Part shown: positions 6,901 to 22,667 of the stretch, in pieces | Layout of the letters: every line of letters begins with the position of its first letter | Numbering within the stretch: position 1 is the stretch's first letter | Source: Natrinema halophilum | GTDB lineage: Archaea > Halobacteriota > Halobacteria > Halobacteriales > Natrialbaceae | Direction of reading: 5' to 3' | NCBI RefSeq assembly: GCF_013402815.2 | Contig: NZ_CP058601.1 | Location: 3,844,001-3,908,000, forward strand | DNA length: 64,000 nt | Position numbers and translations under genes: made by a program | The notes under the pieces: generated by a model | Told to the model about the DNA's origin: nothing | The model's input: the letters and a program-made list of their open reading frames with translations, nothing else | Database searches by the model: none

Positions 6901-7825
6901 CCTCAGAGTGATCGATGTTGTAGCTGATGTTCTCATCAATGCGGTCGGTGAGGTCCCGTGCAGCAGCTGGGAAGTTCTCCCTGAACTCATCGTGGGAGAC
7001 AGTGTTTGCGAATAAGATGTATGGCGGCGTGGTGAAATCATCAAACCCGGAGACGGTGTTCCGGATCATCTTCTGGACGATGGCTTTAAGCCGATAGTTC
7101 CCACCTGGGTCCACCCCTTGCCGCGTGATCTGTTCGAATTCGTCAATATAGAACGCCGGGTAGTGGTCCTCTCGCTCGCGGTAGTAGGTGGTGAACCACG
7201 CGATCGTTTGGTGCGCATCACCCGCTGTCAGTGACTTTGTGACGCGAGCAATGTCTTCGAGCGAGGACGGATCTTCGAAGATATCGATGAGGTCCTGACG
7301 ATGGTTCGGAGGGAGGTCGTCATCAAGATCCTCAAGTGTGAGATTGATCTTCCGATCGTTGAAAATAGCAAGGAGATCATCCTCATCGACAGACGAACTG
7401 TACTCGACCAGTGCAGTGAAGAGGGCGTGGAGGAACTCCGTCGGGGTATCATGTTGTTCAAGGCTGATCGTGAGACAGTCGATAGGTGTCCCGCCGTAGT
7501 GGAGCTGGTCAAACTCTCTGTCACCGTACTCTTGATCGTCCTGACAGAGGAGGGCGATGTTTTCCATCATCACCGTTTTACCAGAGCCATACGCTCCGTG
7601 TAGTATCGCCCCAGGCGTTTCCTGCTCTGCTAAGCCTTGTTGGATCCCCCGAAGGATCTGGGCTCGTTTCTCCGTTAGGATGAAATGGGTGCCTTCCTGA
7701 AGGAATTCCTCGAACTGGGGAAGGTCGTTCTCATCGGCGAGGCGTTGGCATTCTCGCCGGACGCGTTTTATCGTTTGACGGTCGAGAATGTTGACAACAT
7801 CGTCTTTTGCTTCCTCCAGTGTCAT
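3968..7825 (-). CDS. large P-loop ATPase, BrxC/PglY-like
   Basis: This protein is 1285 aa long. Walker A GAYGSGKT lies at residues 77-84 and Walker B AFYIDEFEQI around 224-233 (D228/E229). The rest is a long acidic helical region without further motifs I can name. The size, N-terminal ATPase placement and adjacency to a PglZ-like gene fit the BrxC/PglY family of BREX systems. BREX normally pairs this ATPase with PglZ and a PglX methylase, and no methylase is present here. Both ends overlap neighbours by ATGA (the 106-aa gene upstream, the HerA gene downstream), showing a tightly coupled operon. Alternatives are another STAND-like or KAP-like defence ATPase. I am confident of the ATPase, less so of BrxC orthology. 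Confidence 0.7.
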   Translation of the reverse strand: MTLEEAKDDVVNILDRQTIKRVRRECQRLADENDLPQFEEFLQEGTHFILTEKRAQILRGIQQGLAEQETPGAILHGAYGSGKTVMMENIALLCQDDQEYGDREFDQLHYGGTPIDCLTISLEQHDTPTEFLHALFTALVEYSSSVDEDDLLAIFNDRKINLTLEDLDDDLPPNHRQDLIDIFEDPSSLEDIARVTKSLTAGDAHQTIAWFTTYYREREDHYPAFYIDEFEQITRQGVDPGGNYRLKAIVQKMIRNTVSGFDDFTTPPYILFANTVSHDEFRENFPAAARDLTDRIDENISYNIDHSEEETKELFANLYRLYVIPLLADRGGEAGDWYDTIASAEPGEDGYVYPFTDDTLEFALSIVQKFEDETLDETVVRAFRDYKRILISFLDHWDGEGQIDLDFLYQHGDAVRDQLRGNVERVNLDELPGEDSIEATIEADYPDASGIDLRILCEIAKTGILDRTERPVYFTTDQITNIAGSIELQIDDSEAEDLIGVATQGSEYFSLENERLEFNPNELTGTAADEGELSLADQVGEAVTDLHLEDHEENNLIQLWADMLNHRFPDTAFENQQGQYLVFDTDQDLNYTSKVLFTVAPDDLPEQLSTEVDDDALHIVIRLGRDTEGDLPAKYYVTERNGQAGMVTDDIASNLNRNIELHIDEESGYYNLIEATQEHFPRYDDYQAYVMFLKLSLAYLAGNDLTEDIRDRTADPTSFSLIQTVDSNLTNIADTYPCEKLGFTGTYPGKDYLNLVYGIKHLDREGDLIFESANHPHIDVQSFGRVNRSRESGDEFRAIVEQFADNESFIEERSNGDYDIVPHLSSYSHVLDSIEEHLDEDGLDFDEILELIFGTSEVENVTRAMVYLLLILGQYVDEYSWVFEDDNETTIIPADVRIETQRRQVRKRVGRRIKIAILDQAKQDDTDISQIEDLNDTYDSIETADATELEDIQNDIDASWDFEYQGADELLREIMANDVFVDSAVASYANTIHPLSNLDPELRYLVLDDLDHLATQVKKAATILAKKDDLEALATKLEWFGTDPDLQSEGLSIECITTINDFWETHQVERNIEEADVAADLEQYLDGDIRLDRLIEMLRTQRKSIVPPVDTYDPTEDEASLDDDIRFVTDAIRDGISEEQDNVAAAKEELENYADRIPGESSWIRRGEGYLESCESELEAEPHRFDHTQYEDFWEQWETARNQLDEEAFDGDEFEETVRKYDPDIEIDVVEDATEDSISDKFSELDDDEFQQVIDGLQGSTTAAEELKQSLLKIRVKAELTGDET

Positions 7826-8142
7826 GTGTTTACCTGGTATTTGAAGAGTGACCGTTTCAGATTGATTCTCGGGTCGACGATGTAAATCCTTGTATCAAGC
7901 ACGTCGTGTTCCGTGATACGTCGTGGATTTGCCATCAAGATGATCTTTTCGCCATTATTGTTATCACGGTCTGTCGGGCGGACAAATTCTGTGTCGAACG
8001 TTGTATCTGGTGTTCGGCGCTGACACTCGCTGATGAAGTCAAAGACTGTCTCATATTCGGCATGGATATCATCGATTGAAACGATGGCGATATCGGTGCC
8101 GGCTTGATCCAGATGATCCAAAACGGTGCGTACAATATTCAT
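7822..8142 (-). CDS. hypothetical protein of the PglZ/ATPase operon, 106 aa
   Basis: I do not recognise this small protein. It starts MNIVRTVLDHLDQAGTDIAIVSIDDIHAEYETVFDFI and ends with ITEHDVLDTRIYIVDPRINLKRSLFKYQVNT, suggesting a compact alpha/beta fold with strands IAIVSI and IILMAN. Its stop overlaps the start of the large ATPase gene (ATGA), and its start lies a few bases after the 252-aa gene. It is therefore very likely made together with both. Small conserved proteins in this position are common in BREX-like operons (BrxA or BrxB, for example), but I see no specific similarity to them. Confidence 0.6.
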   Translation of the reverse strand: MNIVRTVLDHLDQAGTDIAIVSIDDIHAEYETVFDFISECQRRTPDTTFDTEFVRPTDRDNNNGEKIILMANPRRITEHDVLDTRIYIVDPRINLKRSLFKYQVNT

Positions 8143-8147
8143 ACTGT

Positions 8148-8906
8148 TTAGGTGGTAACGAGTTCAATGACGGTCTTGCCCTCGTAGCGGTCGGTTGCAG
8201 CCCGGTTCTCGTCCTGTAACTGTTGGAGGATACTCTCGACTTGTTGCTCACTCCACTTGAAATCCATTGTAAGGACGCGCTGGATTTCTGCTAGATCCAT
8301 CCGGTTCCCATGTTCGGCAAGGATATCCTCGACGATATCCGCATCCTCGCCTCGGAAGTACGTGTACTGAGCAGGGTCGATATGCCATCGTCCATCCTCT
8401 TCTACGACGATCTCAAAATCGCGGAGGAAACTCGCAATCGCTCCTGCAGTCACCTTGTTCCCGCTGATCGTGTCCTTCATCAACGTGTTGACGGTGTCCG
8501 CGAGGTCGGCCCCCATATCGTAATTGCCAGCCTGAACCTTCCGGTCAAGTTCCTGAAGGAGGGTGTGGAAGTAGGTGAAGTTGGTCCGTGATTTGCGTTC
8601 TAACAGGTGGAATGCTGCAACACGGAAGTCAGGGGCGTTCAGGAGCTTCAACCCTTCGTCGGTGAGTTCGATGTGGTCGTTATCCTGTTTGAGAATCTCG
8701 ATGGACCGGTTCTCGTCTTGAAGGGTGAATTTGAACCAACCGTCGATCGATTTGAAGAGTTTGGAGTTTCTGTCGCGGTTGATTGCCTCCATTTCGTCAC
8801 GGAGTTCGTCTTCGGTAAGCTCGCCGCGGAAGTGAACGATCTGGGCGAGCTTTTCGATGCCCTTGAGAAGGTCTTGTCGTCCAATACGAGGGATTGTTTT
8901 TGGCAT
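8148..8906 (-). CDS. hypothetical operon protein with winged-helix-like ends, 252 aa
   Basis: The family is not recognised. The N-terminus has a helix-rich segment (GRQDLLKGIEKLAQIVHFRGELTEDELRDEM) that looks like a winged-helix module. The C-terminus has a second one (NRMDLAEIQRVLTMDFKWSEQQVESILQQLQDENRA). The middle includes FTLQDENRSIEIL and an aromatic FHTLLQEL helix. It sits 9 bp downstream of the PglZ gene and 5 bp upstream of the 106-aa gene, so it is co-transcribed with the effector genes. A DNA-binding or adaptor role for the PglZ/ATPase complex is a reasonable inference. A relationship to the small BREX proteins would need a profile search. Confidence 0.6.
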   Translation of the reverse strand: MPKTIPRIGRQDLLKGIEKLAQIVHFRGELTEDELRDEMEAINRDRNSKLFKSIDGWFKFTLQDENRSIEILKQDNDHIELTDEGLKLLNAPDFRVAAFHLLERKSRTNFTYFHTLLQELDRKVQAGNYDMGADLADTVNTLMKDTISGNKVTAGAIASFLRDFEIVVEEDGRWHIDPAQYTYFRGEDADIVEDILAEHGNRMDLAEIQRVLTMDFKWSEQQVESILQQLQDENRAATDRYEGKTVIELVTT

Positions 8907-8915
8907 AAATATGGA

Positions 8916-11684
8916 TCACTCGTCTTCGTATATAAGCCGAAGCCCCGCCATCTCGCTGATCGATGTCCCGCCGTGGTAGCCGTGGTCGTGCCCACTCCTG
9001 TTCTTGATATCGTACCGGGAGAGCAGCCCGACATCAGGCAAATCGAAGATACCGTCACCGCGTGGCTGGTAAACATCGACACCGTCGAACTGCCGGAGAT
9101 CACTGAGCGAAGCATTATCGCTGTCTGCATGCCACCCGAAGACGAATTTAGAGCCTGACTGAAGATACTCGACTTTCTCAGTTACGTCCCGGAGTGCATC
9201 GTCACTGACATCGTTAGCATCCTCCTCAGTAAGCATCGCACGGATACGGTCCACCGGTGGGCCATTCTCATCGGTGGCCACAGTCACGAACTGGTGGTCG
9301 CTTCGATTCGTGAACTCTGCCTCGCGGAAATTGACGCGGTATGCGTGTTGTAGCGGGACGGTCTCTGTCAGCATCTGTTGGTTGAACTCGTATTCCGGGC
9401 GTTCGTTGAGAACCATTTCCATCTCATAACGGGTGAGTTTCCCGTGGTCTGAGATGACCTCGATGTCAATCGGTTCCTCAATGATTGTGTCTGTAGCTTC
9501 GCGCAGATCTGCGAGAAGGTTGTCGAGGAAGTTGCCAAGCGTATTATAGTAGTTCTCGAATTCTTCGAAGGAGAGCATCTCGTGGAGTATTTTGTCGAAG
9601 TCTTCCAAGTATAGGACGATTTGGGACCGTTGTGCTGCGCGCGCTTCCGGGTCCACATCGTCGGTGTTCAGGACGTGGTGGCGTTCGTTCAACGTGCTTT
9701 CGACTTCGTTTACGAAGCCTCTGCGGACTGCGCCCAGGTGATCAGCTTCGATGGATAGGTCAGAGGAGAACCGGATATCGGCGACTTGGTCTGCAAATCG
9801 TGAGATCCCGGAGGAATTAAGCTGCGGTCGCTGGATGAGATGAAAATTGTTCTCGGTGCGTTCATCGACGAAATCGAAAGCGTCGGGATCGTAGCTGCTG
9901 TGCTTGAGATTGAATATGTCGTCACCGTGCCGGGGTTGCCAGCTGTAGATACCCGTGGTCTCAGCGGGAAGCCCAGTGAGGATGGTCGAGATAGCGGAGG
10001 GTGTGTACGACGGCAAATTGGAGAAAGCAAGGTCCACATCGTCCGGTTCTGTGTTCAGGAAACCGAACTGGTTGAGAAGCAGGTAGTCGGTATAGCCGAC
10101 ACTATCGAGGATGACAGTAAGCTTGATCCTGCCGTCCTCTGGTGCCGTGAGCAGATCGGAGAGATGGAGCCACTCATCGTCGGAGACAATTTCGTCGTAC
10201 CGATCAACGACTTCAGCACAGTAGCTGTCGTACTTGTCGATCAACTCCTGTTGCAGGAGATCCGAGACCGGTTCCTCCTCCCGCGTGTCCGCGAGGAACG
10301 AGGCCCACTGGTCCAAGAAGTGAGGCAGCGTATCTAGCTCTACCTCCTGTGTCCGAATGTCCTCTGCGAGGTCTTCGGCCTCGCGTTCACGAAGTTCTTG
10401 TTTGCGTGCCTGGTTTAGTGCGGTCAGGTACCGGTAGGCGAGCAGGTCCTCCCGATCGTTCTCATATACAACGTGGAGGAACTTTTGGAAGATGTCGGCC
10501 CAGCGATCCTCCGGGAACGCTGCATTGACGAAGCGAGGGTGTTTGATGAGCGCGACTTCCGCGAGGAGTTGGAGAAGGCTATCAACTTTTTCAACGGTGT
10601 TGAGAGCTTGGTCTGGTCCGTAGTCCTCGATTTGATGGCTGTCGCTTGATAATTGGTCCCGTACAGTATTGACCAGATCGGTGAATTCGTCTTCGTCAAC
10701 GGTGTGAAACAGGATACCGAAGTGTTGGGTCAGGATCTCAGCGGCGTGTTCTGGTTCTTGGATATTGATTGCCGTGTCCTGTCCTGTGATCTCTTGGTAG
10801 CTCTCTTGGATGGTATCGATGACATCCCGGTCTAATCGGACGGTGGCAAGTTCGGTCAGGGTTGCATCGAACAGCCGCCGCTGGGCGAGCCATTTGGTAA
10901 TCAGAGTTCGATACAGGCGCTGAAGATCCGGGTCGAGATCTTGAATCTCGGCTGCGACAGGATATTTAGGCTCGTTTTGTGCAAATCTGTCGCCATACGT
11001 GGCGAGGAGCCGGGGCGTGTAGACGTTCTGTTGGGCAGTTGGTTCGAGGCTGTCAAACAGCTCGGTGTTGGGAATACCAATACTGTCGAGGAAGAACTCG
11101 CGGACAGCTGTCGGGACGGACGACAAGGTGTCGTAGGGGATGTAGAAGTCGTCAAGTTGGTCGTCAGTACTGGTCTGAATGTGTGTGGGATTCAGCTCAG
11201 CTCCTGTGGCTGCCGCGGTGAAAGCGCGCAGAGCGAACTCGGCAAGGTCATCGATGGTGCGCGGTTGTGGTTCTGTGCCAGCCCCGCGTTCGAAGGCACT
11301 ACGGATGGTTCTGGTCGGATCATCCAACTGAACACGTTCAAAATGAACGAACGATGTGCCGGGAATCTCTTGGTAGCCATCAACGAGAAACCGAGGACAG
11401 AAGAATACGACAGTTCCATCTCCGTCGTTGTTCACGAGGTAATCGATACCGGTGTAAATCGTCTCTTGGAACTCCCATTCATCGACCGGCATCGACAGGA
11501 CACGGACATCGTCACTATCAACAATAGCACTGAGTACCCGTTTATCAAAGGGCACCGGGAGGTCAGTCGGCACATAGAGGATCTTCCCCGTCCCATCCAT
11601 AATCGCATCCCGAGTTCCAGTAAGACGTTGGAACGCAGTGAAATCGAACGAATCCTCCAGATACTGTTCCAGGGCTTCCTTCAT
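8916..11684 (-). CDS. PglZ-like alkaline-phosphatase-superfamily protein
   Basis: This 922-aa protein carries a C-terminal PglZ domain of the alkaline phosphatase superfamily. The metal site and nucleophile regions are visible as VILDSVGYTD (D527), LPSYTPSAISTILTGLP (T561 as likely nucleophile position), EVISDHGK (D746, H747) and GYHGGTSISE (H904, E911). The approximately 500-residue N-terminal part is helical and acidic, as in other long PglZ proteins. PglZ is a hallmark of BREX phage-defence systems, where it works with the BrxC/PglY ATPase, found here two genes downstream. The start ATG is followed upstream by 292 bp before queC, so this gene may open its own transcript. A weak AT-rich element (GCATTAAGT) lies about 40 bp upstream. 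It is probably the enzymatic core of the effector half. Confidence 0.85.
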   Translation of the reverse strand: MKEALEQYLEDSFDFTAFQRLTGTRDAIMDGTGKILYVPTDLPVPFDKRVLSAIVDSDDVRVLSMPVDEWEFQETIYTGIDYLVNNDGDGTVVFFCPRFLVDGYQEIPGTSFVHFERVQLDDPTRTIRSAFERGAGTEPQPRTIDDLAEFALRAFTAAATGAELNPTHIQTSTDDQLDDFYIPYDTLSSVPTAVREFFLDSIGIPNTELFDSLEPTAQQNVYTPRLLATYGDRFAQNEPKYPVAAEIQDLDPDLQRLYRTLITKWLAQRRLFDATLTELATVRLDRDVIDTIQESYQEITGQDTAINIQEPEHAAEILTQHFGILFHTVDEDEFTDLVNTVRDQLSSDSHQIEDYGPDQALNTVEKVDSLLQLLAEVALIKHPRFVNAAFPEDRWADIFQKFLHVVYENDREDLLAYRYLTALNQARKQELREREAEDLAEDIRTQEVELDTLPHFLDQWASFLADTREEEPVSDLLQQELIDKYDSYCAEVVDRYDEIVSDDEWLHLSDLLTAPEDGRIKLTVILDSVGYTDYLLLNQFGFLNTEPDDVDLAFSNLPSYTPSAISTILTGLPAETTGIYSWQPRHGDDIFNLKHSSYDPDAFDFVDERTENNFHLIQRPQLNSSGISRFADQVADIRFSSDLSIEADHLGAVRRGFVNEVESTLNERHHVLNTDDVDPEARAAQRSQIVLYLEDFDKILHEMLSFEEFENYYNTLGNFLDNLLADLREATDTIIEEPIDIEVISDHGKLTRYEMEMVLNERPEYEFNQQMLTETVPLQHAYRVNFREAEFTNRSDHQFVTVATDENGPPVDRIRAMLTEEDANDVSDDALRDVTEKVEYLQSGSKFVFGWHADSDNASLSDLRQFDGVDVYQPRGDGIFDLPDVGLLSRYDIKNRSGHDHGYHGGTSISEMAGLRLIYEDE

Positions 11685-11976: not shown

Positions 11977-12687
11977 TCAGTCGCTGTAGACTGGCCGTTC
12001 CTTGTATTCAATCGGATCCTCAGTCCCCGCTTCTTGGAACGCTTTGAGTCTGTAGGCACACGCGTCACAGGTCCCACAGGCCGGAGATTCGTCCCGGTAA
12101 CAGCTCCACGTCAACTCGTATGGCACGTCAAGTTCGAGACCGCGTTCAGCAATATCCGTCTTGCTCCAATCGACAAACGGGGCCACTAGTTCGATCGATG
12201 TCTCCGGTTTCGTCCCAACGTTGATGACCTGCTGGAAAGCATCGAAGAACTCGGGTCTGCAGTCAGGATAACCCGAGTAATCCTCACTGTGTGCTCCAAT
12301 ATAGACTGTCTCACAGTCATTTGCTTCAGCGTAGGAGACTGCCATCGAGAGCAGGTTTGCGTTCCGGAATGGGACATAGCTGGACGGAACCTCATCACTG
12401 TCGAGGTCCACCTCGTTGACATCAATACTATCATCGGTCAGGCTGGAGGCACCGATCCGCGCCAAGTGGTCGGTCTCGATGTGGAGGAAGTCAGCGACAT
12501 CCATCCGTTCGGCAAGCTGGTGGGCACAGTCGAGTTCCTTGTTCTCGGTCTGCTGACCGTACGACGTGTGAAGGAAGTACAGGTTATGACCCCTGTATTT
12601 CGCCTCGAACGCTGCCGTCGCACTATCCATACCACCCGATACAAGAACAACAGCTCCATTCCGGTTTTCGTTAGTTGCAGTCGTCAT
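11977..12687 (-). CDS. queC: 7-cyano-7-deazaguanine (preQ0) synthase QueC
   Basis: QueC converts 7-carboxy-7-deazaguanine to preQ0 using ATP and ammonia. The 236-aa protein has the PP-loop SGGMDSATAAF near residue 17 and the C-terminal zinc cluster CYRDESPACGTCDACAYR with its four cysteines, so it looks catalytically complete. Length is usual for the family. It is the third gene of the queD-queE-queC run, 12 bp after queE. In Archaea preQ0 normally feeds archaeosine in tRNA. Here the genes lie divergent from two TGT/DpdA-like genes and beside PglZ/ATPase genes, which argues for a dedicated DNA-modification supply. Confidence 0.95.
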   Translation of the reverse strand: MTTATNENRNGAVVLVSGGMDSATAAFEAKYRGHNLYFLHTSYGQQTENKELDCAHQLAERMDVADFLHIETDHLARIGASSLTDDSIDVNEVDLDSDEVPSSYVPFRNANLLSMAVSYAEANDCETVYIGAHSEDYSGYPDCRPEFFDAFQQVINVGTKPETSIELVAPFVDWSKTDIAERGLELDVPYELTWSCYRDESPACGTCDACAYRLKAFQEAGTEDPIEYKERPVYSD

Positions 12688-12699
12688 TATTGACTATCT

Positions 12700-13482
12700 C
12701 TATGTTTCTGGTGCGTCGTTCCACAGATCGACGTGGAGCCGTGGCGTGTACTGGTAGCCATGCTTCAAGGCCATTTCTGCAGTCAATTCCCGCCTCTCGT
12801 TCAATCGTTCCCGTGTCGCCCCCTCTGGCATCAACAACACGTCCGAATCACGGATTACAGCATCTGTTGACGCCCTTAACCGATCAACAAGCTGGTTGAT
12901 ATCCGACACATCGTCCTGATCCATAGTGACGAACTTCAACTGGAACCCGTAGTCCTCGACCAAGTGAGATAGGGCATCTATGTCGATCCGTTGATTCTCG
13001 TGTCGGTCGGCCCATTGGCCGTCCTCTTTCGGGTCTTTCTCCGGGAGCGGTGTACTGCTTGCGAGTTTCGGACTGATACTCGCTAAATCGATCGATGCAT
13101 CACGGTAGATTGTGCCGTTGGTTTCGACGGTCGTGTGATACCCGGCGGTACTGAGCCTGTCCAGCAGCCGCACTGTCTCATCATGGATGAGCGGTTCACC
13201 GCCGGTCACCACTACGTGGTCTGCCTCATCATGGTCTTTTACCTCATCGACGATGGTGTCGAGGTCAAGCCAGGCATGGGTGGGCTCCCAACTGGTGTGG
13301 TAGGAATCACAGAACCAACACCGCAGATTGCAGCCACTCGTCCGAATGAAGACACTCGGCACACCGGCCAGTTTTCCCTCACCCTGTAACGAGTAGAACA
13401 ACTCGTTGATCGGTAGCGAACCGTCCGTTTCCACGTTATCAACGTCTCCATCGACAACGTCCGTATCAGCATTCACCGGCAT
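12700..13482 (-). CDS. queE: 7-carboxy-7-deazaguanine synthase QueE
   Basis: QueE is a radical SAM enzyme that rearranges 6-carboxy-tetrahydropterin to 7-carboxy-7-deazaguanine. The 260-aa protein shows FYSLQGEGKLAGVPSVFIR, then the [4Fe-4S] motif CNLRCWFC (CX3CX2C, as in QueE) and the SAM-binding GGEPL box about 55 residues later. The N-terminal 20 residues are an acidic extension. It lies 6 bp after queD and 12 bp before queC, so the three are co-transcribed. It is not RaSEA, the radical SAM partner of ArcS, because the QueE signature around the cysteines is clear. Confidence 0.95.
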   Translation of the reverse strand: MPVNADTDVVDGDVDNVETDGSLPINELFYSLQGEGKLAGVPSVFIRTSGCNLRCWFCDSYHTSWEPTHAWLDLDTIVDEVKDHDEADHVVVTGGEPLIHDETVRLLDRLSTAGYHTTVETNGTIYRDASIDLASISPKLASSTPLPEKDPKEDGQWADRHENQRIDIDALSHLVEDYGFQLKFVTMDQDDVSDINQLVDRLRASTDAVIRDSDVLLMPEGATRERLNERRELTAEMALKHGYQYTPRLHVDLWNDAPET

Positions 13483-13488
13483 ACGCTG

Positions 13489-13956
13489 TTATTGAGGGGC
13501 ACCAGCGGCTAGTTCACCGGTCTCCTGTACTTCAACAGTAACGTCGCTCACGCTATCGGGTAAGCCACGACGGAGACGCTGTTCGAGGACGAGGCTCATC
13601 ACTTCGGCTGTCGGTGGGTGATCCAAGACAACGACGGCATCACTGTCCCCGCTGGCGTCAAATGCCTCAATCAGTGGATCGCCCCGTTCAAGCAGGAAGC
13701 GATGGTCCCAGTCAGAGACAATATCGGTGATATCACCTTTGTCAACCACCCAACCGTCCTCGGTCAGGGTACCAGTCACTGAGACAGTGACCGAATAGTT
13801 GTGACCATGCGGGCGACTACACTTCCCATCGTGGTGCAGAATGCGGTGGCCTGTACTGATACGGATCGGCCGGTCCTGACCGACAGAGAGGGTCCGTTCA
13901 TCCTCTGTGAAATCGTGTGAGGCCAAAGAGTGTTCTTCGAGGGCACGTTGAGCCAT
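13489..13956 (-). CDS. queD: 6-carboxy-5,6,7,8-tetrahydropterin synthase QueD
   Basis: QueD makes 6-carboxy-tetrahydropterin from dihydroneopterin triphosphate, the first pathway step after GTP cyclohydrolase. The 155-aa protein has the zinc-binding histidines in STGHRILHHDGKCSRPHGHNYSV (H..., HxH), the WDHRFLL region and the C-terminal glutamate region VEVQETG. The gene is first in the leftward operon. A TATA-like TTTAAGTATT lies about 26 bp upstream of the ATG, so the transcript is probably leaderless. No GTP cyclohydrolase gene occurs in the window. That step must come from the chromosomal folate/archaeosine pathway. Confidence 0.93.
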   Translation of the reverse strand: MAQRALEEHSLASHDFTEDERTLSVGQDRPIRISTGHRILHHDGKCSRPHGHNYSVTVSVTGTLTEDGWVVDKGDITDIVSDWDHRFLLERGDPLIEAFDASGDSDAVVVLDHPPTAEVMSLVLEQRLRRGLPDSVSDVTVEVQETGELAAGAPQ

Positions 13957-14098: not shown

Positions 14099-16021
14099 AT
14101 GTCTGCATTCAGGACGCTCGCAAAAGATGAATATGGTCGTCGAGGCGTTATAGACACGCCTGCGGGCCAAATTCAGACGCCTGCGCTTCTCCCCGTTGCG
14201 AACCTCATTGGAGGAACTACGCCAAAATCAGGGGGAATCTGGCGGTACGCCCGCCGGTATCTCTTCGAGAGCGACAGCGTCCAGGGAATCATGTTTCAGA
14301 CGATGACGTTCCTGGACTACAATCTCACCCCGGATAACCTGGCGGACTGGCGTGAGAAGCCCCTCAAACAGCATTTCGAGGAGAGTGATGTAGAACCCGG
14401 GTTCAGCCAGCCACTATTTGTGGACTCCGGCGGGTTCAAGCTGATGAACTCGACCACGTTCGGCCAGCCACCGGAAGAAGGTGGCAGTGAGAATGACTGG
14501 GGTATCTACACGAATCCAGAAAGCATCTTGAAACTGCAGCTGGACTACGGGGCTGACATCATCGCTACACTGGACTTCCCGATTCCACAGAACCTGAACC
14601 AAGACGAAGCCACGGAACGAATGAAAAAGAGCATCGACAACGCAGTCGAGTGCCTGCAGATGCTCAATGACCCCGAACTGCTGGATGAATGGGATGTAGA
14701 TGAAACGCCGTCTGTCTACGTGGCGATTCACGGTCACAGCTACGAGGACGTTCACTGGTACGTTAGCCGGTTCCTAGACCGCGCAAATGAACTCGATGAA
14801 GCCTTCGAGGGTTTCGCACTCGGATCACTGGTCCCGCTCAGCAACTCTCCTGATGTCCTAGTAGACATTGTCCAGGGGGCGAAAGATGCGATACCCGAAG
14901 AACGGTACGACGATATAGCGCTCCACGTGTTCGGTATCAGCGGCCGTCTCTGCCCACTCCTCGCGTTGCTCGGTGTCGATACATTCGATTCAGCGAACTA
15001 TCTGAAAGCCGCCCGTAACAAGAGCTTCATCCATCCAGAGACGTGGAAACGCACGAAGCTGGATCAAATCGAGGACTGGGACAACTGGTGTGGCTGTAAG
15101 GCATGCCAGGATATTCATATCGATGATATGCGGCATGCCCTTTTGGAGTCCGACGTCAAGTACAAACCAATCGAAGGCGAGCATGGCACTCATTTCAAGA
15201 GTGAGTACTATGCCCAGATTGCTCACCACAACTTCGAACTTTACAGCCGTCAGATGCAGGACGTCCGCGATGCTATCGACAACGATGGACTGCTCGAACT
15301 GGTCGCTGACTTCGCCCAGGACAAAAACATTGTCGAGAAGGGATTGAAACGGGCACAGCTCCACAACCCGGAGCTCCGTGAACAGCTTGCTGACCTTGGC
15401 TACGAAGCACTTGTCGCCGGGCCGGACACAGAAACCTTCCAGACCAAACTGTCCAGCTTCTACGATGACATCGATGATGAACAGGAGGAGAAACGAACAA
15501 TCTCACTGAAACACGGTCCAAACGACTTCGATATTCTCCAGTACGACAGCTACCAGCCACCCAGTGATGCATCGGTACTGCTGATTCTGCCGTGCAGCCA
15601 AGAGAAGCCGTATTCTGACTCTCGAACACACCAGGCTGTCATCTCCCGACTCAAGGACTATGAGGACAGCTATCACAAGATTTCTCTCTCAGGACTGTAC
15701 GGACCTGTGCCCGAAGCACAGGAAACGGTGGAGCCTGTGATGAGCTACGAATACGTGCTCACCACTGCAGACGAGGACCAGGTTGACCTCGTTGCGAACC
15801 GGCTGGCCGCGTATCTGGACCGGTACGGTGAGCAGTTTGATCATATCCTCGCCTACACGACCAGTAAAGCCTACCGCCAAGCAATCGAGGAAGCCTTCTC
15901 CCGGTACGGCCGCGGTGAGATGTATCCGCGCGAGCCACGCGCTCTCCAACTGACCGAACACTTCCGGAACACCAACATCGATGAATTAGTTGAGCGGATT
16001 GATACAGCACTTGTCGAATAA
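14099..16021 (+). CDS. TGT/DpdA-like transglycosylase fused to an ArcS-type (DUF5591-like) domain
   Basis: The protein is 640 aa from the ATG at 14099. A TTG at 14063 would add 12 residues but conserved TGT sequence starts at MSAFRTLAKDEYGRRG. Residues 1-400 are a TGT barrel: FVDSGGFK (D109, general base), GVDTFDSANY (D294/D297, nucleophile region) and zinc ligands C331-x-C333-x2-C336 with H376/H377. Residues 480-640 carry LILPCSQEKPYSDSRTH (P498-H511). This matches the PC-X3-KPY-X2-S-X2-H motif of archaeosine synthase ArcS, which adds lysine to preQ0 in tRNA. I see no PUA domain, the tRNA-binding part of archaeal TGT and ArcS. I infer DNA as substrate from context: queDEC divergent, a second TGT downstream, and PglZ/ATPase genes. 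If so, the modified base could be preQ0 or an ArcS-type derivative of it. Confidence 0.85.
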   Translation: MSAFRTLAKDEYGRRGVIDTPAGQIQTPALLPVANLIGGTTPKSGGIWRYARRYLFESDSVQGIMFQTMTFLDYNLTPDNLADWREKPLKQHFEESDVEPGFSQPLFVDSGGFKLMNSTTFGQPPEEGGSENDWGIYTNPESILKLQLDYGADIIATLDFPIPQNLNQDEATERMKKSIDNAVECLQMLNDPELLDEWDVDETPSVYVAIHGHSYEDVHWYVSRFLDRANELDEAFEGFALGSLVPLSNSPDVLVDIVQGAKDAIPEERYDDIALHVFGISGRLCPLLALLGVDTFDSANYLKAARNKSFIHPETWKRTKLDQIEDWDNWCGCKACQDIHIDDMRHALLESDVKYKPIEGEHGTHFKSEYYAQIAHHNFELYSRQMQDVRDAIDNDGLLELVADFAQDKNIVEKGLKRAQLHNPELREQLADLGYEALVAGPDTETFQTKLSSFYDDIDDEQEEKRTISLKHGPNDFDILQYDSYQPPSDASVLLILPCSQEKPYSDSRTHQAVISRLKDYEDSYHKISLSGLYGPVPEAQETVEPVMSYEYVLTTADEDQVDLVANRLAAYLDRYGEQFDHILAYTTSKAYRQAIEEAFSRYGRGEMYPREPRALQLTEHFRNTNIDELVERIDTALVE

Positions 16022-16094: not shown

Positions 16095-16556
16095 ATGACG
16101 TCGCTACTCATTCAATCGTGTTCTGCGACCAAGGAAGCGGTGGATACACCGGTGCCTGCCCTTGATTTGTACGATGGTTACTTTTTCAGGATCATCAAAA
16201 AGGCAGTGCGCACGAACCGGTTTCAGCCCGGACTTGACATAACAATTATATCAGCCAAACATGGTGTTGTCGAACCTGACGACCACATTGGCTACTATGA
16301 TCAGGAGATGGACACAGAGCGGGCCAACGAATTGAATGACGAAATTATCGACGCTATCGCTAGCAAGGTTGTCGAACACGAGTACGAGAAAGTATGGGTC
16401 AATCTGGGCAAGGACTACATGCCCGCTGTAGATGGAATTGATGAAGCGGTCGATGTCCCGGTTCTCCATATCGAGGGTAGTGGTATCGGAATGAAAGGCA
16501 AACAACTGAAACACTTGGTGTCCAGCAGCCGCTCGATACCGACCCACGGAGATTAA
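16095..16556 (+). CDS. DUF6884/YaaA-like small protein
   Basis: This 153-aa protein has an N-terminal LIQSCSATK (C9, K13), then PALDLYDGYFF and ITIISAKHGVVEPDDHIGYYDQEM. That order of motifs is the DUF6884/YaaA-like pattern. The C-S-x-x-K box resembles the P-C-S-x-x-K-P-Y box of the ArcS-type domain in the gene just upstream, so a related deazaguanine-ligase or nitrile-processing role is possible. It lies between the two TGT-like genes, 73 bp after the first and 3 bp before the second. It is very likely part of the modification machinery. The biochemical role is unknown. Confidence 0.7.
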   Translation: MTSLLIQSCSATKEAVDTPVPALDLYDGYFFRIIKKAVRTNRFQPGLDITIISAKHGVVEPDDHIGYYDQEMDTERANELNDEIIDAIASKVVEHEYEKVWVNLGKDYMPAVDGIDEAVDVPVLHIEGSGIGMKGKQLKHLVSSSRSIPTHGD

Positions 16557-16559
16557 CAG

Positions 16560-17813
16560 ATGGTGTCGTTCGACGTCATCGCTGAGGCAGGGGAGACACG
16601 ACGAGGCCAGCTCCAGATCAACGACAGAACACTGGAGACCCCGCACCTGTTTCCTGTCGTCAACTTCTATGGAGGCGGCAACGAACCGGCCTTGTTCGGC
16701 GGCGGTATCCACAGGACGGTGAAGGAGTTTATGGTCAACCATCCGCCGACCACCGGTGGAACGGACTATAGCGACCTCTTCGGCGGCGTTATGACCTCTA
16801 TCTCTTCCCTGACGGATTACGGGATCAGGGAGAAGAAACTGGAGGAGTACCTCGATAACGAGATCCGTGAATGGGGCAAGTTCAGCGACTACGACGGTAT
16901 GATCTTCGCTGACTCAGGTGGATATAAAATCCTAAAACAGGGCGGCGAACTGGAGGGCGAGGACTTCACGAAGGATATCACCCAAGACAAGGCGTTGGAC
17001 ATGCAGTTGGATCTCGGGCCGGACATCGTCGTCAACCTCGATCATCCGATCCATCCAGACGACGAGTTCGAGGAGCGGATCGAGAAGATGGAAAAGACTG
17101 CGGTCAACGCTCGACAGCTCGCAAAACGTCGGGACGAAGTTGACGGCGCGTGTTACCTGACTGTCCACGGGTATTACGAGGCGATGCTGGAGCGATCGTT
17201 TGACGCGATCGAGAACGAACTGGATAAGCCAATCCCCGAAGTGTTCGATGGTATCGCGCTGGGAAGCCTCGTCCCACGAAAGGACAACGTCGAGGTTCTG
17301 ATTGAAGCAGTCTCTGACTGCCGACTGGAAATGCAGCAACGCGGATACAATGATCTTCCGCTGCACGTATTCGGCATTTCGGGGAATGCGATGCCGTTAC
17401 TTGTAGCGGTCGGGGCTGATACCTTCGATTCAGCCTCCTACCTCCACCAGGCAATAAACGGCAAGTACTGTGTGAATCTCTTCGAGACTGTGCCGGTAGA
17501 GGAAGCGGACTTCCACGCTTGTGACTGCCGGATCTGTAATGACGGACTCCACCGCGATCGGATGCGGAACAGACTGGATGACCTGTATCAGAAGGACATC
17601 TTGGGCTCCGTCGCAGCCCACAATCTGGCGATCCAACAAAGGGAGCTACGCCGGTTCCGTCAGTTGATCGCCGAAGCCGACGAAGACCAAATCGCTGCGT
17701 ATCTAGAAGAAGCCGTCAAGGATCAGAAGGGCTTCCGCAAGTTCGCCTACAAACTGATCAATGAACGAATCAAGCCATACTTCGACGACGATGGAGAGAC
17801 AAGCTATGCATAA
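16560..17813 (+). CDS. second TGT/DpdA-like transglycosylase
   Basis: This is a 417-aa stand-alone TGT barrel. FADSGGYK places the general base at D118, and GADTFDSASY gives the nucleophile region (D287/D290). Zinc ligands are C321, C323, C326 in HACDCRIC and H354 in AAHNL. All catalytic and zinc positions are present, so it looks active rather than a dead partner subunit. There is no PUA domain, unlike archaeal tRNA TGT. DpdA proteins, the DNA-acting members of this superfamily, exchange guanine for preQ0 in DNA. Two such genes side by side may form a heterodimer or handle different strands or sequence contexts. Its stop overlaps the start of the GHKL gene by 8 bp. Confidence 0.85.
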   Translation: MVSFDVIAEAGETRRGQLQINDRTLETPHLFPVVNFYGGGNEPALFGGGIHRTVKEFMVNHPPTTGGTDYSDLFGGVMTSISSLTDYGIREKKLEEYLDNEIREWGKFSDYDGMIFADSGGYKILKQGGELEGEDFTKDITQDKALDMQLDLGPDIVVNLDHPIHPDDEFEERIEKMEKTAVNARQLAKRRDEVDGACYLTVHGYYEAMLERSFDAIENELDKPIPEVFDGIALGSLVPRKDNVEVLIEAVSDCRLEMQQRGYNDLPLHVFGISGNAMPLLVAVGADTFDSASYLHQAINGKYCVNLFETVPVEEADFHACDCRICNDGLHRDRMRNRLDDLYQKDILGSVAAHNLAIQQRELRRFRQLIAEADEDQIAAYLEEAVKDQKGFRKFAYKLINERIKPYFDDDGETSYA

Positions 17814-19335
17814 GACACCGAAAGTTAACGAGGTCAACGAGTTCATCGAGATTGCAAGCGACTTCGAGGATCCGTTAGAAGTCATTCGAGAAGCACTGTC
17901 GAATTCCTACGACGCAGAGGCAACCTGGGTCGAAATTGAGATCAAACAAGATGACGAGGGAAGGAACACCCTCATCATCGAGGACGACGGCCACGGTATG
18001 GACGAACAGGACCTGGAATCGTTCTTCGACCTCGGCAACTCCAACAAGCACGACGCGATTGGGTACAAGGGACACGGAACCAAGATCTACTACAAGAGCG
18101 ACGAGATTCGTGTCGAGAGCGTGAAAGACGGTAACCACGTTGAGTCTGTGATGGAGCAGCCGTGGGAGACACTGAACAACCACGAACTACCAACCTACTC
18201 GGTTGATACGGAAGAGACAGATGAAACCTCTGGCACCCGGATCGAGGTTCACGGCTTCCGGGCAGGCCAAGGCTTCGATCCAGAACAGCTCACATACAAC
18301 AAAATCGAGCACTACATCAAGTGGAAGACAATCGGTGGCTCAACTGCTTGGCACTTCGATGATGACTTCCACGAATTCGATATTGAGGTCACGCTCTCAC
18401 CGCAAATCGACAATACGCGCAAGCCAATAGAGACGACCAACAAGCTAGAATTCCCCGATGAAAACCTCCATCCTGACGGTGAATTCGTTGCAGAGCGGAT
18501 GTGCAAGCATTTCCCACCGCGTGAGCTAACTGTCACGTTGGACGATGGCCGAGAGCTTACTATCGAAGTCGTGGGAATGGTCGGTGGAAAAGAGGCGCGT
18601 AATGAACTTCCGACTTATGGCAAGCACTCAGCCCAGTTCGGGATCTGGCTGGCGAAGGACCACATCAAGGTCGAACGGTACAACGATGCTATCGGTGCAG
18701 ACAACGAGTTCTTCCATTTCTTCTTCGTCGCAAACTGCCAGTCGCTCGAACTATCCGCCAATAGGGAAAAGATACGGAATAAATCAGGTGATGTCTATCA
18801 GGCCATCACGAACGAACTGGAACGGTTCATGACCAAGGTCTGCCAAGAAGAATGGTACAGAGACTACATCGCCCGCCGCAAACTCGAAGACAAGAAACGA
18901 AGCGTTCAATCGCAGGAAAGCTCACTCCAAGATCGCCTGGTGAAAACCAAAGAGCAGGGTGGGCTCTCACCATCGAATCCTGCCGAGGTCATCGCAGCGT
19001 TAGAACGGTACAGCGCTAATGGATCGCCAGAGACTGTTGAGATTGCGGACTTCCGGATGGACGAAGAGGTTAATGCCATCGTCAACACCGATGATGGATA
19101 TAAGAACGCAGCACTACAAGCCAAGCTCAGTGATTTCTTCGAAGATGAGACACCGCTGACTCACATAGACCGGTTCATCTGCTGGAAGGTTGGTGATCGG
19201 GATGCTTTGACCAAGATCGAGCGGGCCTCCTATCTCGGTGACCCCATCCGCTTTGATTTCAGCAACAACGAAGTGACGTATGGAGAGGAAGATAAGAAAA
19301 CAATCCCTGTTCTCGAATTAGTCGACAAAATGTAG
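17806..19335 (+). CDS. GHKL (Hsp90/MutL/MORC-like) ATPase
   Basis: The protein is 509 aa from the ATG at 17806, which overlaps the stop of the TGT gene. An upstream ATG at 17761 gives a non-conserved leader and is less likely. The Bergerat ATP fold is clear: N-box EALSNSYD (E29, N33, D36), G1 box EDDGHGMD (D61, G62, G64) and G2 box GYKGHGTK (86-93). The C-terminal half has a helical part with basic residues and a strand-rich end. GHKL ATPases act as nucleotide-gated clamps. MORC- and MutL-like members occur in many defence systems. Coupling to the TGT gene suggests it belongs to the modification arm or reads modification status. Its partner is unknown. Confidence 0.8.
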   Translation: MHKTPKVNEVNEFIEIASDFEDPLEVIREALSNSYDAEATWVEIEIKQDDEGRNTLIIEDDGHGMDEQDLESFFDLGNSNKHDAIGYKGHGTKIYYKSDEIRVESVKDGNHVESVMEQPWETLNNHELPTYSVDTEETDETSGTRIEVHGFRAGQGFDPEQLTYNKIEHYIKWKTIGGSTAWHFDDDFHEFDIEVTLSPQIDNTRKPIETTNKLEFPDENLHPDGEFVAERMCKHFPPRELTVTLDDGRELTIEVVGMVGGKEARNELPTYGKHSAQFGIWLAKDHIKVERYNDAIGADNEFFHFFFVANCQSLELSANREKIRNKSGDVYQAITNELERFMTKVCQEEWYRDYIARRKLEDKKRSVQSQESSLQDRLVKTKEQGGLSPSNPAEVIAALERYSANGSPETVEIADFRMDEEVNAIVNTDDGYKNAALQAKLSDFFEDETPLTHIDRFICWKVGDRDALTKIERASYLGDPIRFDFSNNEVTYGEEDKKTIPVLELVDKM

Positions 19336-19551: not shown

Positions 19552-19785
19552 TCAATCATCTTTGAGAAGTCTCCACAGGAGAGTGTTCCCTACTTTCTGT
19601 GAGGAAACTAATCCATTTTTTTCCATCTTCTGAAGTCGCTTATACGCAGTGTCGTGGGCACAACCTACATAATCTGCAATATCGCCCGTTCCTGCCATTC
19701 CCCCCTTGTCACTGATGGCATTATGAAAATCTTCAGTAGAGTACTCGCCGGTATACCGGCCAGATTCTTCGTCACGGTCGGGCAT
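19552..19785 (-). CDS. winged-helix transcriptional regulator, 77 aa
   Basis: This small protein has one helix-turn-helix module: TGDIADYVGCAHDTAYKRLQKMEKNGLVSSQKV, with a wing ending TLLWRL. The size and sequence style are those of small haloarchaeal wHTH regulators of mobile elements. It is transcribed away from the RAMP-type operon that starts at 19969. Its start codon lies 22 bp from a 9-bp palindrome (19807-19834), so it probably represses itself and perhaps the divergent operon. No ligand domain is present. Confidence 0.75.
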   Translation of the reverse strand: MPDRDEESGRYTGEYSTEDFHNAISDKGGMAGTGDIADYVGCAHDTAYKRLQKMEKNGLVSSQKVGNTLLWRLLKDD

Positions 19786-19968: not shown

Positions 19969-20580
19969 ATGAGCGAACCCATGAGAGAATCAAAGCTACC
20001 TGCTCAAGAAGCTATCGACCAAGCGTTAATTGAAGAAATACAGCAGCTGGATAAAATTGCGCTCGGGGAAGGGGCCGCGGTTTGTGAAGTCTGCGGTGAA
20101 AAACTGCGGGAAGGCGCACCGGTCGTCGTGTTCGTCTTCCGGCCGGTCGATCAACCGGCTTTCCAGTTCGGGCACGTGAAATGTATTGAGTGTCGGCATG
20201 AGCCGTCGGAGTTTTTCACGCTGGGTGTGCACGAGCTTGTCTTGGATGGCCGGATCGGCACGTGCAGTGATCCGGCGACTCAGTCGTCGTGGCCTGTTCT
20301 GCTGGGCCCGCAGCCGCGTGCTGTGAGTCCGGCAGATGCGACTACGGTACGACCTCTGCCGGGTGTGGTGTGGTTTCGACGCCCGGTTGCGCGTAGTGAG
20401 ACGTTCGTTACTGCGGATGGTGAATCGACGTGTAAGCCGTGGCAGCGTGCGGTGGTGCGGGCTGACAGATCGGACCGCGAGGGTGCGTCCGAGTCGGATG
20501 CTGGTTCGAAGAGTGATGATACGACTGAAACTACTGCCCGACACGCTGCTGATGGTGGCCGTCAGGGAGGTGTTCGCTGA
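19969..20580 (+). CDS. zinc-finger protein of the RAMP-type operon, 203 aa
   Basis: Residues 35-75 carry two CxxC pairs (AVCEVCGEKL and HVKCIECRHEP), a treble-clef or zinc-ribbon-like site. The C-terminal 40 residues are a polar, Ser/Asp-rich tail. The gene opens a rightward operon followed 2 bp later by a Cas7/RAMP-like gene. A Cys4 protein beside a Cas7-like protein recalls Csf1 of type IV CRISPR systems and may equally be the conserved uncharacterised subunit of the haloarchaeal HRAMP systems. I cannot choose between them by eye. Codon use here is visibly G/T-rich on the + strand compared with flanking genes, suggesting separate acquisition. Confidence 0.6.
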   Translation: MSEPMRESKLPAQEAIDQALIEEIQQLDKIALGEGAAVCEVCGEKLREGAPVVVFVFRPVDQPAFQFGHVKCIECRHEPSEFFTLGVHELVLDGRIGTCSDPATQSSWPVLLGPQPRAVSPADATTVRPLPGVVWFRRPVARSETFVTADGESTCKPWQRAVVRADRSDREGASESDAGSKSDDTTETTARHAADGGRQGGVR

Positions 20581-20582
20581 CG

Positions 20583-21548
20583 ATGCACGGGGAGCAAGAC
20601 ACGCAGGCCTTCGACGAATCGCACCTGGATATCGACTTTGACTTCTCGCGTCCCGTAGATGAGGTGGCGTTTCCTGACCTGTACGTTGGTCTCGATATCG
20701 ACTTGCTCGCGCCGGGTGATGGGATCGTCACGGATCGACACCACGCCTCAGCTGACCGGTACGAAGCCGACGATCCGCAGAATCAGATCGCGGGGCAGAT
20801 TTCGCCGTTCACGTTGTCGGGGTGGCTGCGCCATGGCTGTGAACGGGTGGTGCAGGCGGCGGGCGCGACGGCGTGCCATCCGGGCGAATCGAACGCGGAT
20901 TACATGTTGGAAGACGTGTACGCTCGTGATCTGGATGCAGGGTATCACGAGAAAGGCAGTTGTGTCGATGGCGATGCTGACGCGGGCTGTGTCGTTCATG
21001 ACTTGTTCGGTGGGTTCGGTGATCGGGCGGGTCGAGTGATTCGTCGTCCGATTCGGTTTTCGCCGATCCGACGCCAGGTGGATGTGACGAAGGGTGAGGC
21101 GGAAGCGCATTACCGACAACTCAACACGCAGGTGCGCTCCCGCAACGCCGAAGATGAGGGCCAACCGTTGCGGCAGGCGACGCGGGATGTCGTCGGGAAT
21201 CTTGTTGGGACATGGCGGCTCACGCTGCGGGAGTTGAAACCTGAATATGTGGGCTTGCTCGTCGAGGCCGTCGATTATCTGGATGCGCATAGTGCCGAGT
21301 ATGCAATGCAGCTTGGCGGGGCGCGGAACTTCGGTGCCGGGATTGTCGATGCTGACGTGGTGAACCCGCTGTACACGGACGCTGAACTCCGGCGGGTGTA
21401 TAATCGAGCGCAGGATGCGACGAGCGGGATGGACACGAAGGACGATGTGTGGCGTGACCAGTGTCGTGCGGAGTTCGTGCGTGCGTTGCAGGCACGGACG
21501 GCTGCGCGTGATGGTGACCTGCCGGTCCCCGGTGGTGAGTCGGCATGA
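20583..21548 (+). CDS. Cas7/RAMP-superfamily-like protein (HRAMP or Csf2-like)
   Basis: In this 321-aa protein the order of features fits the RAMP fold of Cas7. ISPFTLSGWLRHGCERVV resembles the 'IpGSslRG.lR' helix region. CVVHDLFGGFGDRAGRVIRRPIRFSPI resembles the 'C.LFG' thumb region. ELKPEYVGLLVEAVDYLD is followed by AMQLGGARNFGAGIVDADVV, the glycine-rich RAMP loop. Such proteins form RNA-binding backbones. HRAMP systems described in Halobacteria contain diverged Cas7 and Cas5 with assorted nucleases and no CRISPR array, and this locus matches that layout. Csf2 of type IV is the main alternative. The stop overlaps the next start (ATGA). Confidence 0.7.
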   Translation: MHGEQDTQAFDESHLDIDFDFSRPVDEVAFPDLYVGLDIDLLAPGDGIVTDRHHASADRYEADDPQNQIAGQISPFTLSGWLRHGCERVVQAAGATACHPGESNADYMLEDVYARDLDAGYHEKGSCVDGDADAGCVVHDLFGGFGDRAGRVIRRPIRFSPIRRQVDVTKGEAEAHYRQLNTQVRSRNAEDEGQPLRQATRDVVGNLVGTWRLTLRELKPEYVGLLVEAVDYLDAHSAEYAMQLGGARNFGAGIVDADVVNPLYTDAELRRVYNRAQDATSGMDTKDDVWRDQCRAEFVRALQARTAARDGDLPVPGGESA

Positions 21549-21832
21549 CGGGGTCGGACGAGGCTGATGATCCTGGTGACGATGTGGACGCGGAGGAAGA
21601 TCTTGATGAGCTGGCTCCGGTGGTGTCGTCGTTGCGGACGGCGCAAGAGCAGGATGGCGGGGCGGACCAGATCGTGGAGAGAGGGGATGACCACGCGGAG
21701 TCGGATCGGGATGCGTTGGATGAGCTAGCCCCGGTTGCGTCGGGGGTGCGGACTGCCCAGAGCCAACCCGATGCGGGTGCTGCTGATGGTTCGAGTGATG
21801 ACGGTGATGAGGGGTGTGGTGGCGATGACTGA
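21545..21832 (+). CDS. small acidic protein with a duplicated segment, 95 aa
   Basis: The start overlaps the Cas7-like stop by ATGA, and its end overlaps the next start by 8 bp, so it is a genuine operon member. The sequence is very acidic (MTGSDEADDPGDDVDAEED). It contains an approximate internal duplication: LDELAPVVSSLRTAQ near residue 21 and LDELAPVASGVRTAQ near residue 57. Two equal short helices in a disordered acidic chain suggest a bivalent linker or tether, perhaps binding two Cas7-like subunits. No family recognised. Confidence 0.6.
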   Translation: MTGSDEADDPGDDVDAEEDLDELAPVVSSLRTAQEQDGGADQIVERGDDHAESDRDALDELAPVASGVRTAQSQPDAGAADGSSDDGDEGCGGDD

Positions 21833-22667
21833 TTCGTCGTCGGTGACTGCGGGCGCGGGGCGAGAGTCGGGTGGCAGTGAGGCTGTGACGGACGTGGATC
21901 CGATGCTGGCGGTGTACCGGCATGACGTCCACAAACTGCGTGGCCGGTCACACGCAGCGGCTCGTGACCGCGTTGCTGGTGTGCGGGTGAATGAGACGGT
22001 CCTGTTGGGTGCGGATCGGGATGCGGCGCTGCTGAGCCGCCCGGCCGGGGAGCCGGAGCAGACGCTGGATGCCCACGCGGCTCCGTCGCGGGTGTCGCTG
22101 GTGACTGGTGACGTGGTGATATCTGGGTCGGTCGGTGCGGATGGTCGTGACGCGGGCGTGCGGGAGTTAGTCCGGATTGAGGATTCGGAGGAGATGCATG
22201 AGGCGTGGCTGTCGTCGGACGTAGCGGGGCTGTTCAACGAGTCAGTGCATTATCCGTACACGTCGCTGAAGTACCACACGCTGCTGGCGGCGGCGCTCCT
22301 TGATAATTACCACGCGGGGTTCGGGTTCGAGGAGTTGTTCTTGGCGGTCGAGGAGCCGGATGGGGCGGTAACGCCGCACCGGACGGTGCTTTCGACTCCC
22401 GACATGCAACTGTGCGTGACTGGTGAGCCGGGTGGCCGACCGGCGGCGCGGCTTGGTGACGGGCCGGCGCGGTGCTTCGCGGACGTGTGGGCACGCCTGC
22501 CAGAACACCCGCTCGATGTGGGTGGTGAGCGGCGGTGGCGGGTGTTGGATGCGCAGTTGCGGCGCATCCGCTCGTGGTCGGCGGCGCTCCAGTATGTTGA
22601 GGAGTTTTGTCGGCGCTTCGACTCGCGTGGTTCGGGTCGCGGCGGTCGTGTTGGGGGTGGGAGGTGA
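21825..22667 (+). CDS. 280-aa protein of the RAMP-type operon, candidate Cas5-like or conserved HRAMP subunit
   Basis: I chose the ATG at 21825 (MTDSSSVTAGAG), which overlaps the 95-aa gene; the longer frame from 21735 runs through that gene. After an approximately 25-residue polar leader come DPMLAVYRHDVHKLRGRSH and a core with NESVHYPYTSLKYHTLLAAALLDNY. Next is GFGFEELFLAVEEP, and the helical C-terminus ends in a Gly/Arg-rich tail. No catalytic motif is visible. By position it should be the Cas5-like or uncharacterised conserved subunit of an HRAMP-type complex. A structure-based comparison would be required to confirm. Confidence 0.55.
   Translation: MTDSSSVTAGAGRESGGSEAVTDVDPMLAVYRHDVHKLRGRSHAAARDRVAGVRVNETVLLGADRDAALLSRPAGEPEQTLDAHAAPSRVSLVTGDVVISGSVGADGRDAGVRELVRIEDSEEMHEAWLSSDVAGLFNESVHYPYTSLKYHTLLAAALLDNYHAGFGFEELFLAVEEPDGAVTPHRTVLSTPDMQLCVTGEPGGRPAARLGDGPARCFADVWARLPEHPLDVGGERRWRVLDAQLRRIRSWSAALQYVEEFCRRFDSRGSGRGGRVGGGR

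Follow-up and report, generated by a model that had tools for sequence, protein, structure and literature searches.

A TGT–ArcS-core fusion protein in a putative 7-deazaguanine DNA modification and restriction locus of haloarchaea

Results

A TGT barrel and an ArcS-type domain in one protein

The window, a stretch of 64,000 nucleotides from Natrinema halophilum, contains an open frame at positions 14099–16021 of the plus strand that encodes a 640-aa protein (P0001), in which a TGT barrel (TGT1; aa 1–437, 14099–15409, plus strand) is followed by a DUF5591 or ArcS-core domain (aa 483–605, 15545–15913, plus strand). The first-pass annotation had claimed a complete TGT barrel and an exact PC-X3-KPY-X2-S-X2-H motif for this protein, and both are confirmed; the domains are recognised independently by Pfam, by NCBIfam, by the match to 2q07, and by superposition on 1iq8. 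Pfam TGT covers residues 101–408 (E 1.4e-29), and an AlphaFold model of the fusion, which is of low confidence at residues 113–136 and 443–471, aligns over 346 residues with the Pyrococcus horikoshii archaeosine TGT (1iq8) at 2.9 Å with a Z of 35 (VIA-align Z 35.1 for the barrel). Both catalytic aspartates (D109 and D297) and the zinc ligands C331, C333, C336, and H377 are in place in the TGT part. The second domain is matched by Pfam DUF5591 (E 3.8e-18), residues 483–611 match the sequence of the solved DUF5591 protein AF0587 (2q07, E 7e-8), and the NCBIfam ArcS model covers residues 484–599 with 109.8 bits, which is below its cut-off of 440 bits. The ArcS motif itself, PCSQEKPYSDSRTH (aa 498–511, 15590–15631, plus strand), fits PC-X3-KPY-X2-S-X2-H exactly, and the number of such matches expected in a random protein of the same length and composition is 5.5e-8. 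We obtained no Pfam match for a PUA domain in the fusion, whose C terminus lies 35 residues past DUF5591, and the claimed absence of PUA is thus borne out.

We aligned 59 fusion homologues, of which 31 are haloarchaeal, 27 come from bacterial loci, and one comes from a Thermococcaceae MAG. D109, D297, H377, C499, K503, P504, Y505, and S508 are invariant in all 59, across archaea and bacteria, and in the second domain C499, K503, P504, Y505, and S508 make up what looks like a catalytic pattern. H511 varies in six of the 59, and the zinc cysteines are missing in a few. The fusions of genomes G124 and G260 (loci L076 and L067) have partly or wholly lost the zinc-site cysteines of the TGT part and have kept both catalytic aspartates.

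A conserved block of three genes and a set of preQ0 genes adjoin the fusion

Three genes follow the fusion on the plus strand. The first, at 16095–16556, encodes a 153-aa DUF6884 protein of the DpdC/YaaA superfamily (Pfam E 2.2e-13; PADLOC DpdC E 4e-5), the second, at 16560–17813, a 417-aa TGT that we call TGT2 (Pfam E 1.6e-27), and the third, at 17806–19335, a 509-aa GHKL ATPase (Pfam HATPase_c_3). The active-site and zinc residues of TGT2 are intact in an alignment of 28 sequences, and its score against the NCBIfam DpdA model is 22 bits, where the cut-off is 200. In 28 of 28 haloarchaeal loci these three genes lie on one strand and overlap or nearly touch, with GHKL straight after TGT2, and the fusion is found near the block in either orientation. 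Among 391 haloarchaeal genomes, 43 carry the GHKL gene. The fusion accompanies it in 38 of these and is missing from the other five, and one further genome has the fusion but no GHKL block.

The structural model of the DUF6884 protein (pLDDT 92) resembles YaaA (5caj, Z 10.9) and AF0587 (2q07, Z 9.8), and the fold is common to DUF6884 and the ArcS core (DUF5591). YaaA-fold proteins may vary in role, and a BRC paper proposes dPreQ0 alone for TGT-bearing systems (PMC12839542), so one could suppose that DUF5591 is a mere DNA-binding or dimerisation part, that DUF6884 has some other role, and that the base stays dPreQ0. We regard this as improbable, since no substitution of C499, K503, P504, Y505, or S508 occurs among the aligned archaeal and bacterial homologues.

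On the minus strand, upstream of the fusion, are genes for preQ0 synthesis that encode a QueD-like (PTPS) protein at 13489–13956, a radical SAM protein (Pfam Radical_SAM) at 12700–13482, which we take to be QueE-like from its position and from knowledge of the family, and QueC at 11977–12687. QueD, QueE, and QueC genes are present in 14 of 31 haloarchaeal fusion loci. A small HTH protein and possible regulator (19552–19785, minus strand) is also found near several sister loci, and RAMP-type (type III CRISPR-like) genes at 19969–22667 of the window likewise have counterparts beside several sister loci.

Two putative restriction modules replace one another in haloarchaea

Next to the preQ0 genes, and also on the minus strand, lies a module of five genes. 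Its two largest proteins are a 922-aa protein of the alkaline-phosphatase superfamily (8916–11684; Pfam Phosphodiest E 2.3e-6), which has conserved DHG and HGG motifs and is a probable effector, and a 1285-aa AAA/STAND-like ATPase (3968–7825) with a conserved GAYGSGKT and a Pfam AAA_22 match that is below the cut-off (E 3e-4). The others are a 252-aa protein with weak winged-helix matches (8148–8906), a 106-aa protein (7822–8142), and a 413-aa HerA-family DNA translocase (2730–3971; Pfam DUF87 E 1.4e-13; PADLOC mad8/HerA). The 922-aa protein is presumably PglZ-like; it matches Phosphodiest alone and has no Pfam PglZ match up to E 0.1. Profiles of this protein and of the 1285-aa ATPase found no relatives among solved structures, and the BREX names that we use are therefore tentative.

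This PglZ-like/252-aa/ATPase/HerA module is found in five of 31 loci, the window among them. A different module, composed of an MZB helicase, a DpdJ-like helicase, and a STAND-like ATPase, is found in 19 of the 31, with at least three parts in 17. The two are mutually exclusive across the 31 loci (p 0.005), and seven loci have neither inside the stretch read. When the genome of the window host was searched with the 1578-aa helicase of a sister locus, the best match was a weak one of 24 bits. From their DruE/DpdJ and MZB matches, the sister-locus helicases would belong to the YprA family.

The two modules bring the loci close to different known systems. BRIGADE, as outlined in a preprint on YprA helicases, is a predicted 7-deazaguanine cluster with Dpd-like effectors in halophilic archaea, usually with two YprA-like helicases (PMC12458937). 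The window, from a halophile as well, also has clustered 7-deazaguanine genes, and the sister loci with the helicase module (MZB/DruE-like plus DpdJ-like DEAD-box) fit that outline, but the window itself has the PglZ-like/HerA module instead of the two helicases, and the portion of the BRIGADE main text available describes no TGT–ArcS fusion, TGT2, or GHKL (PMC12458937). BREX-related capture (BRC, PMC12839542) has HerA, a PglZ-like protein, and a large ATPase, to which the window offers HerA, a large ATPase, and the tentatively named PglZ-like protein, and a subset of BRC systems has a TGT; however, DpdC and DpdB were not found there and only dPreQ0 was suggested (PMC12839542), whereas the window has DUF6884 and an ArcS-type domain. 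Neither the 1285-aa nor the 252-aa protein of the window has a Pfam match to the BRC parts DUF6079 (BrxC-like) or DUF4007 (BrxA-like). The bacterial Dpd system, as reported in outline, consists of DpdA, DpdB, and DpdC and places dPreQ0 and dADG in DNA. It shares with the window a TGT-type base exchange, which in the window is predicted to act on DNA, a DUF6884/DpdC-type protein, and putative restriction genes, but the window has two TGTs, one of them fused to an ArcS-type domain, as well as a GHKL ATPase and an archaeal host. A PADLOC scan of ten window proteins gave no match to DpdB (a DndB/ParB-like ATPase). The conserved block, the Que genes, and the alternative restriction modules together therefore suggest that the locus is a DNA-modification and restriction system, in which the restriction part would be supplied by whichever module is present.

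The fusion is patchy in haloarchaea and extends to several bacterial phyla

Of the 391 haloarchaeal genomes sampled, 39 have the fusion. When 84,980 genomes were scanned with the alignment of the family, 59 loci were recovered, among them full-length fusions from Poribacteria, Cyanobacteria, Chloroflexota, Deinococcales, and a few other groups. In Cyanobacteria (L130, L131, L136, L140, L141, and L143) genes for a GmrSD_N-domain protein and a HEPN protein come after the fusion, and other bacterial fusions adjoin genes for DpdJ-like helicases, DrmA, Snf2-type proteins, or HerA (with or without NurA). In one locus of Deinococcales (L150), the genes for a DpdJ-like helicase, the fusion, QueD, QueE, and QueC are consecutive. 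The Fe-ADH and SHMT neighbours in Poribacteria look like ordinary synteny, and we set them aside as parts of the system. In locus L159, a TGT gene and a separate gene for DUF5591 (8580–10477) lie side by side next to HerA and look like the fusion split in two.

DUF6884 was not found in 17 of 22 bacterial fusion genomes searched, and in those 17 the fusion's own domain therefore probably suffices. In the same 22 genomes, several of which are draft MAGs, no RaSEA scored above the cut-off.

We also considered a phage origin of the fusion and found no support for it, as the phage search gave distant TGT matches only. Viral contigs gave one match to the fusion, weak and partial, and the ArcS-core domain alone had only weak Sulfolobus virus matches in phages. 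A plasmid of Haladaptatus sp. YSMS36 (L216) carries two genes of fusion length annotated as tRNA-guanine transglycosylase, together with TGT2, DUF6884, an ATP-binding protein, a PLD-like protein, and two helicases.

The host has a separate tRNA archaeosine pathway

Outside the window, the host genome encodes its own TgtA, ArcS, and RaSEA, the last in a single copy. It also has a second QueC/QueE/QueD set outside the window, 63–70% identical to the window set (QueC 70%). Archaeosine synthase ArcS resembles the fusion in that a TGT-like part precedes DUF5591 and the first motif is the same. However, the TGT part of tRNA ArcS is degenerate, and the host ArcS is without the DSGG segment, whereas the TGT of the fusion is intact. 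The second motif differs as well, being SG[LM]YGPVP in the fusions and TSP[IL]G[IV]VP in tRNA ArcS, and in the domain tree, which is rooted by midpoint only, tRNA ArcS forms its own clade with 100/100 support and the fusions fall outside it.

The fusion could in principle be a second tRNA archaeosine enzyme that joins the TGT and ArcS steps. Its nearest family models are indeed those of tRNA enzymes: among NCBIfam models it scores closer to TgtA than to DpdA, with no match to the DpdA model NF041059 up to E 0.01, and archaeal TGT is reportedly not strictly dependent on PUA (according to a title cited in PMC11298593). Nevertheless, we think this very improbable, as TgtA, ArcS, and RaSEA are already in the host, the fusion is patchy (10% of haloarchaea), it is present in bacteria without RaSEA, and surroundings of defence genes recur.

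RaSEA also bears on whether the fusion, with RaSEA supplied by the host, would make deoxyarchaeosine in DNA, as the first-pass annotation had proposed. The window host does encode RaSEA, and dG+ is known in phage DNA, with traces in phage nt-1, which has an ArcS homologue (PMC6884629). Yet the one RaSEA of the host is not at the window locus, and RaSEA is found in none of the 22 bacterial carriers searched, so archaeosine by the known route is not a general end product. With the second motif also different from that of tRNA ArcS, the domain in a clade apart, and a DpdA-type pair beside the block of fusion-less haloarchaea (see below), the proposal did not gain support; we hold this route to be doubtful for the fusion, and archaeosine is unlikely as the product of the family.

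A DpdA-like and DUF6884 pair appears to stand in for the fusion

At the search threshold used, the fusion is missing from five of the haloarchaeal genomes that carry the GHKL block. In all five, a gene for a 310-aa protein (P0002) is near the block, and this gene is in none of the 31 fusion loci. In G028 and G143, the 310-aa protein and a second DUF6884 protein, of 149 aa, are encoded immediately before the block. Searches of PDB and PHROGs with the 310-aa protein gave nothing useful, and it was identified only through its match to DpdA of Halorubrum tailed virus 29 (HRTV-29; 26% identity, E 2e-15). In this virus, DpdA adjoins a YaaA-type gene, and the pair (gp32–gp33, YaaA–DpdA) is thus of the same kind as that beside the fusion-less block, although it is viral, is made of separate genes, and has about 26% identity. 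The viral gene next to DpdA (L215, 3110–4235) is annotated as peroxide stress protein YaaA and may encode a DpdC-type enzyme. In G028 and G143 an 829-aa GmrSD_N-type protein is encoded after GHKL (L205, 17887 onward).

The DpdA and DpdC-type pair appears to fill the slot of the fusion, and this suggests by analogy that the DUF5591 domain may do a DpdC-like job on DNA. That the target is DNA and not tRNA, as was claimed at the outset, is supported by the separate TgtA, ArcS, RaSEA, and QueC/E/D of the host, by the defence locus, and by the DpdA-like protein beside the block of the five fusion-less genomes, paired with DUF6884 in G028 and G143. Gene context and the replacement pair thus point to DNA as the probable target of the fusion.

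Discussion

The domains, the residues, the gene association, and the swapping of modules are seen directly, and we infer the order of steps, the product, the DNA target, and the restriction. We consider it reasonably probable that the fusion serves as the insert-and-convert enzyme in a haloarchaeal system that modifies DNA with a 7-deazaguanine and restricts DNA lacking it. In such a system, QueD, QueE, and QueC would make preQ0, and the fusion together with TGT2, perhaps as a mixed dimer, would swap guanine for preQ0 in host DNA, with the GHKL ATPase gating or powering the base exchange. Conversion would fall to the ArcS-type domain, in which Cys499 would probably serve as nucleophile, and to the adjacent DUF6884 protein, both acting on the nitrile once the base is in place. 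Because the TGT step is reversible, this conversion would fix the swap and yield the finished mark. HerA would capture any DNA without the mark for the PglZ-like module to cut. Speaking against this scheme, the NCBIfam models place the fusion closer to TgtA than to DpdA, the host does encode RaSEA, and in a few haloarchaeal genomes the GHKL block occurs without the fusion (five) or the fusion without the block (one).

Inserting first and locking second is a reasonable order, because Thermococcus kodakarensis ArcS is reported to act on the preQ0 nucleoside and not on free preQ0, and the preQ0–lysine adduct is reported to stop the reverse TGT reaction. The earlier suggestion that the domain acts on preQ0 already within nucleic acid is plausible in light of this substrate.

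The likeliest finished mark would be an amide, dADG, which we prefer because of the parallel with DpdC and to which we give about an even chance. Counting against a single amide product, the haloarchaeal loci hold two nitrile-type domains, which are not obviously needed for an amide alone, and PC-X3-KPY is common to the fusion and to lysine-transferring ArcS. Alternatively, the ArcS-type domain might put lysine or another amine on preQ0 in DNA, with the adduct as the final mark and no RaSEA step. The motif of lysine-transferring ArcS is exact in most copies of the fusion, T. kodakarensis ArcS reportedly requires only the preQ0 nucleoside to form an adduct that prevents reversal, and the 22 bacterial carriers searched have no RaSEA, all of which agree with such an adduct. 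The fusions nevertheless differ in the second motif (SG[LM]YGPVP vs TSP[IL]G[IV]VP) and lie in a separate clade, and the DpdA and DUF6884 pair found in place of the missing fusion suggests a DpdC-like step. We therefore see an amine adduct, both as the action of this domain and as the mark, as a less likely candidate. Deoxyarchaeosine and plain dPreQ0 are each improbable as the mark.

Returning to the fusion as an insert-and-convert enzyme, a bolder form of this reading, which we offer tentatively and think rather unlikely, is that the fusion, as one polypeptide, writes a preQ0–lysine (amidine) deoxynucleoside or a related adduct, a mark so far unreported in cellular genomes, and that this writer is a portable cassette, common to haloarchaea and a number of bacterial phyla, which can be coupled to one restriction module or another. 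If the insert-and-convert reading is right, a single protein would both insert a 7-deazaguanine in DNA and lock it chemically. This would account for the permanence of a reversible base exchange and connect the making of archaeosine in tRNA with the self-marking of DNA. BRIGADE and BRC, two recently named hybrid defence classes, would be joined by a common writer cassette, the writer would reach several bacterial phyla, and the question of its product would become concrete and measurable.
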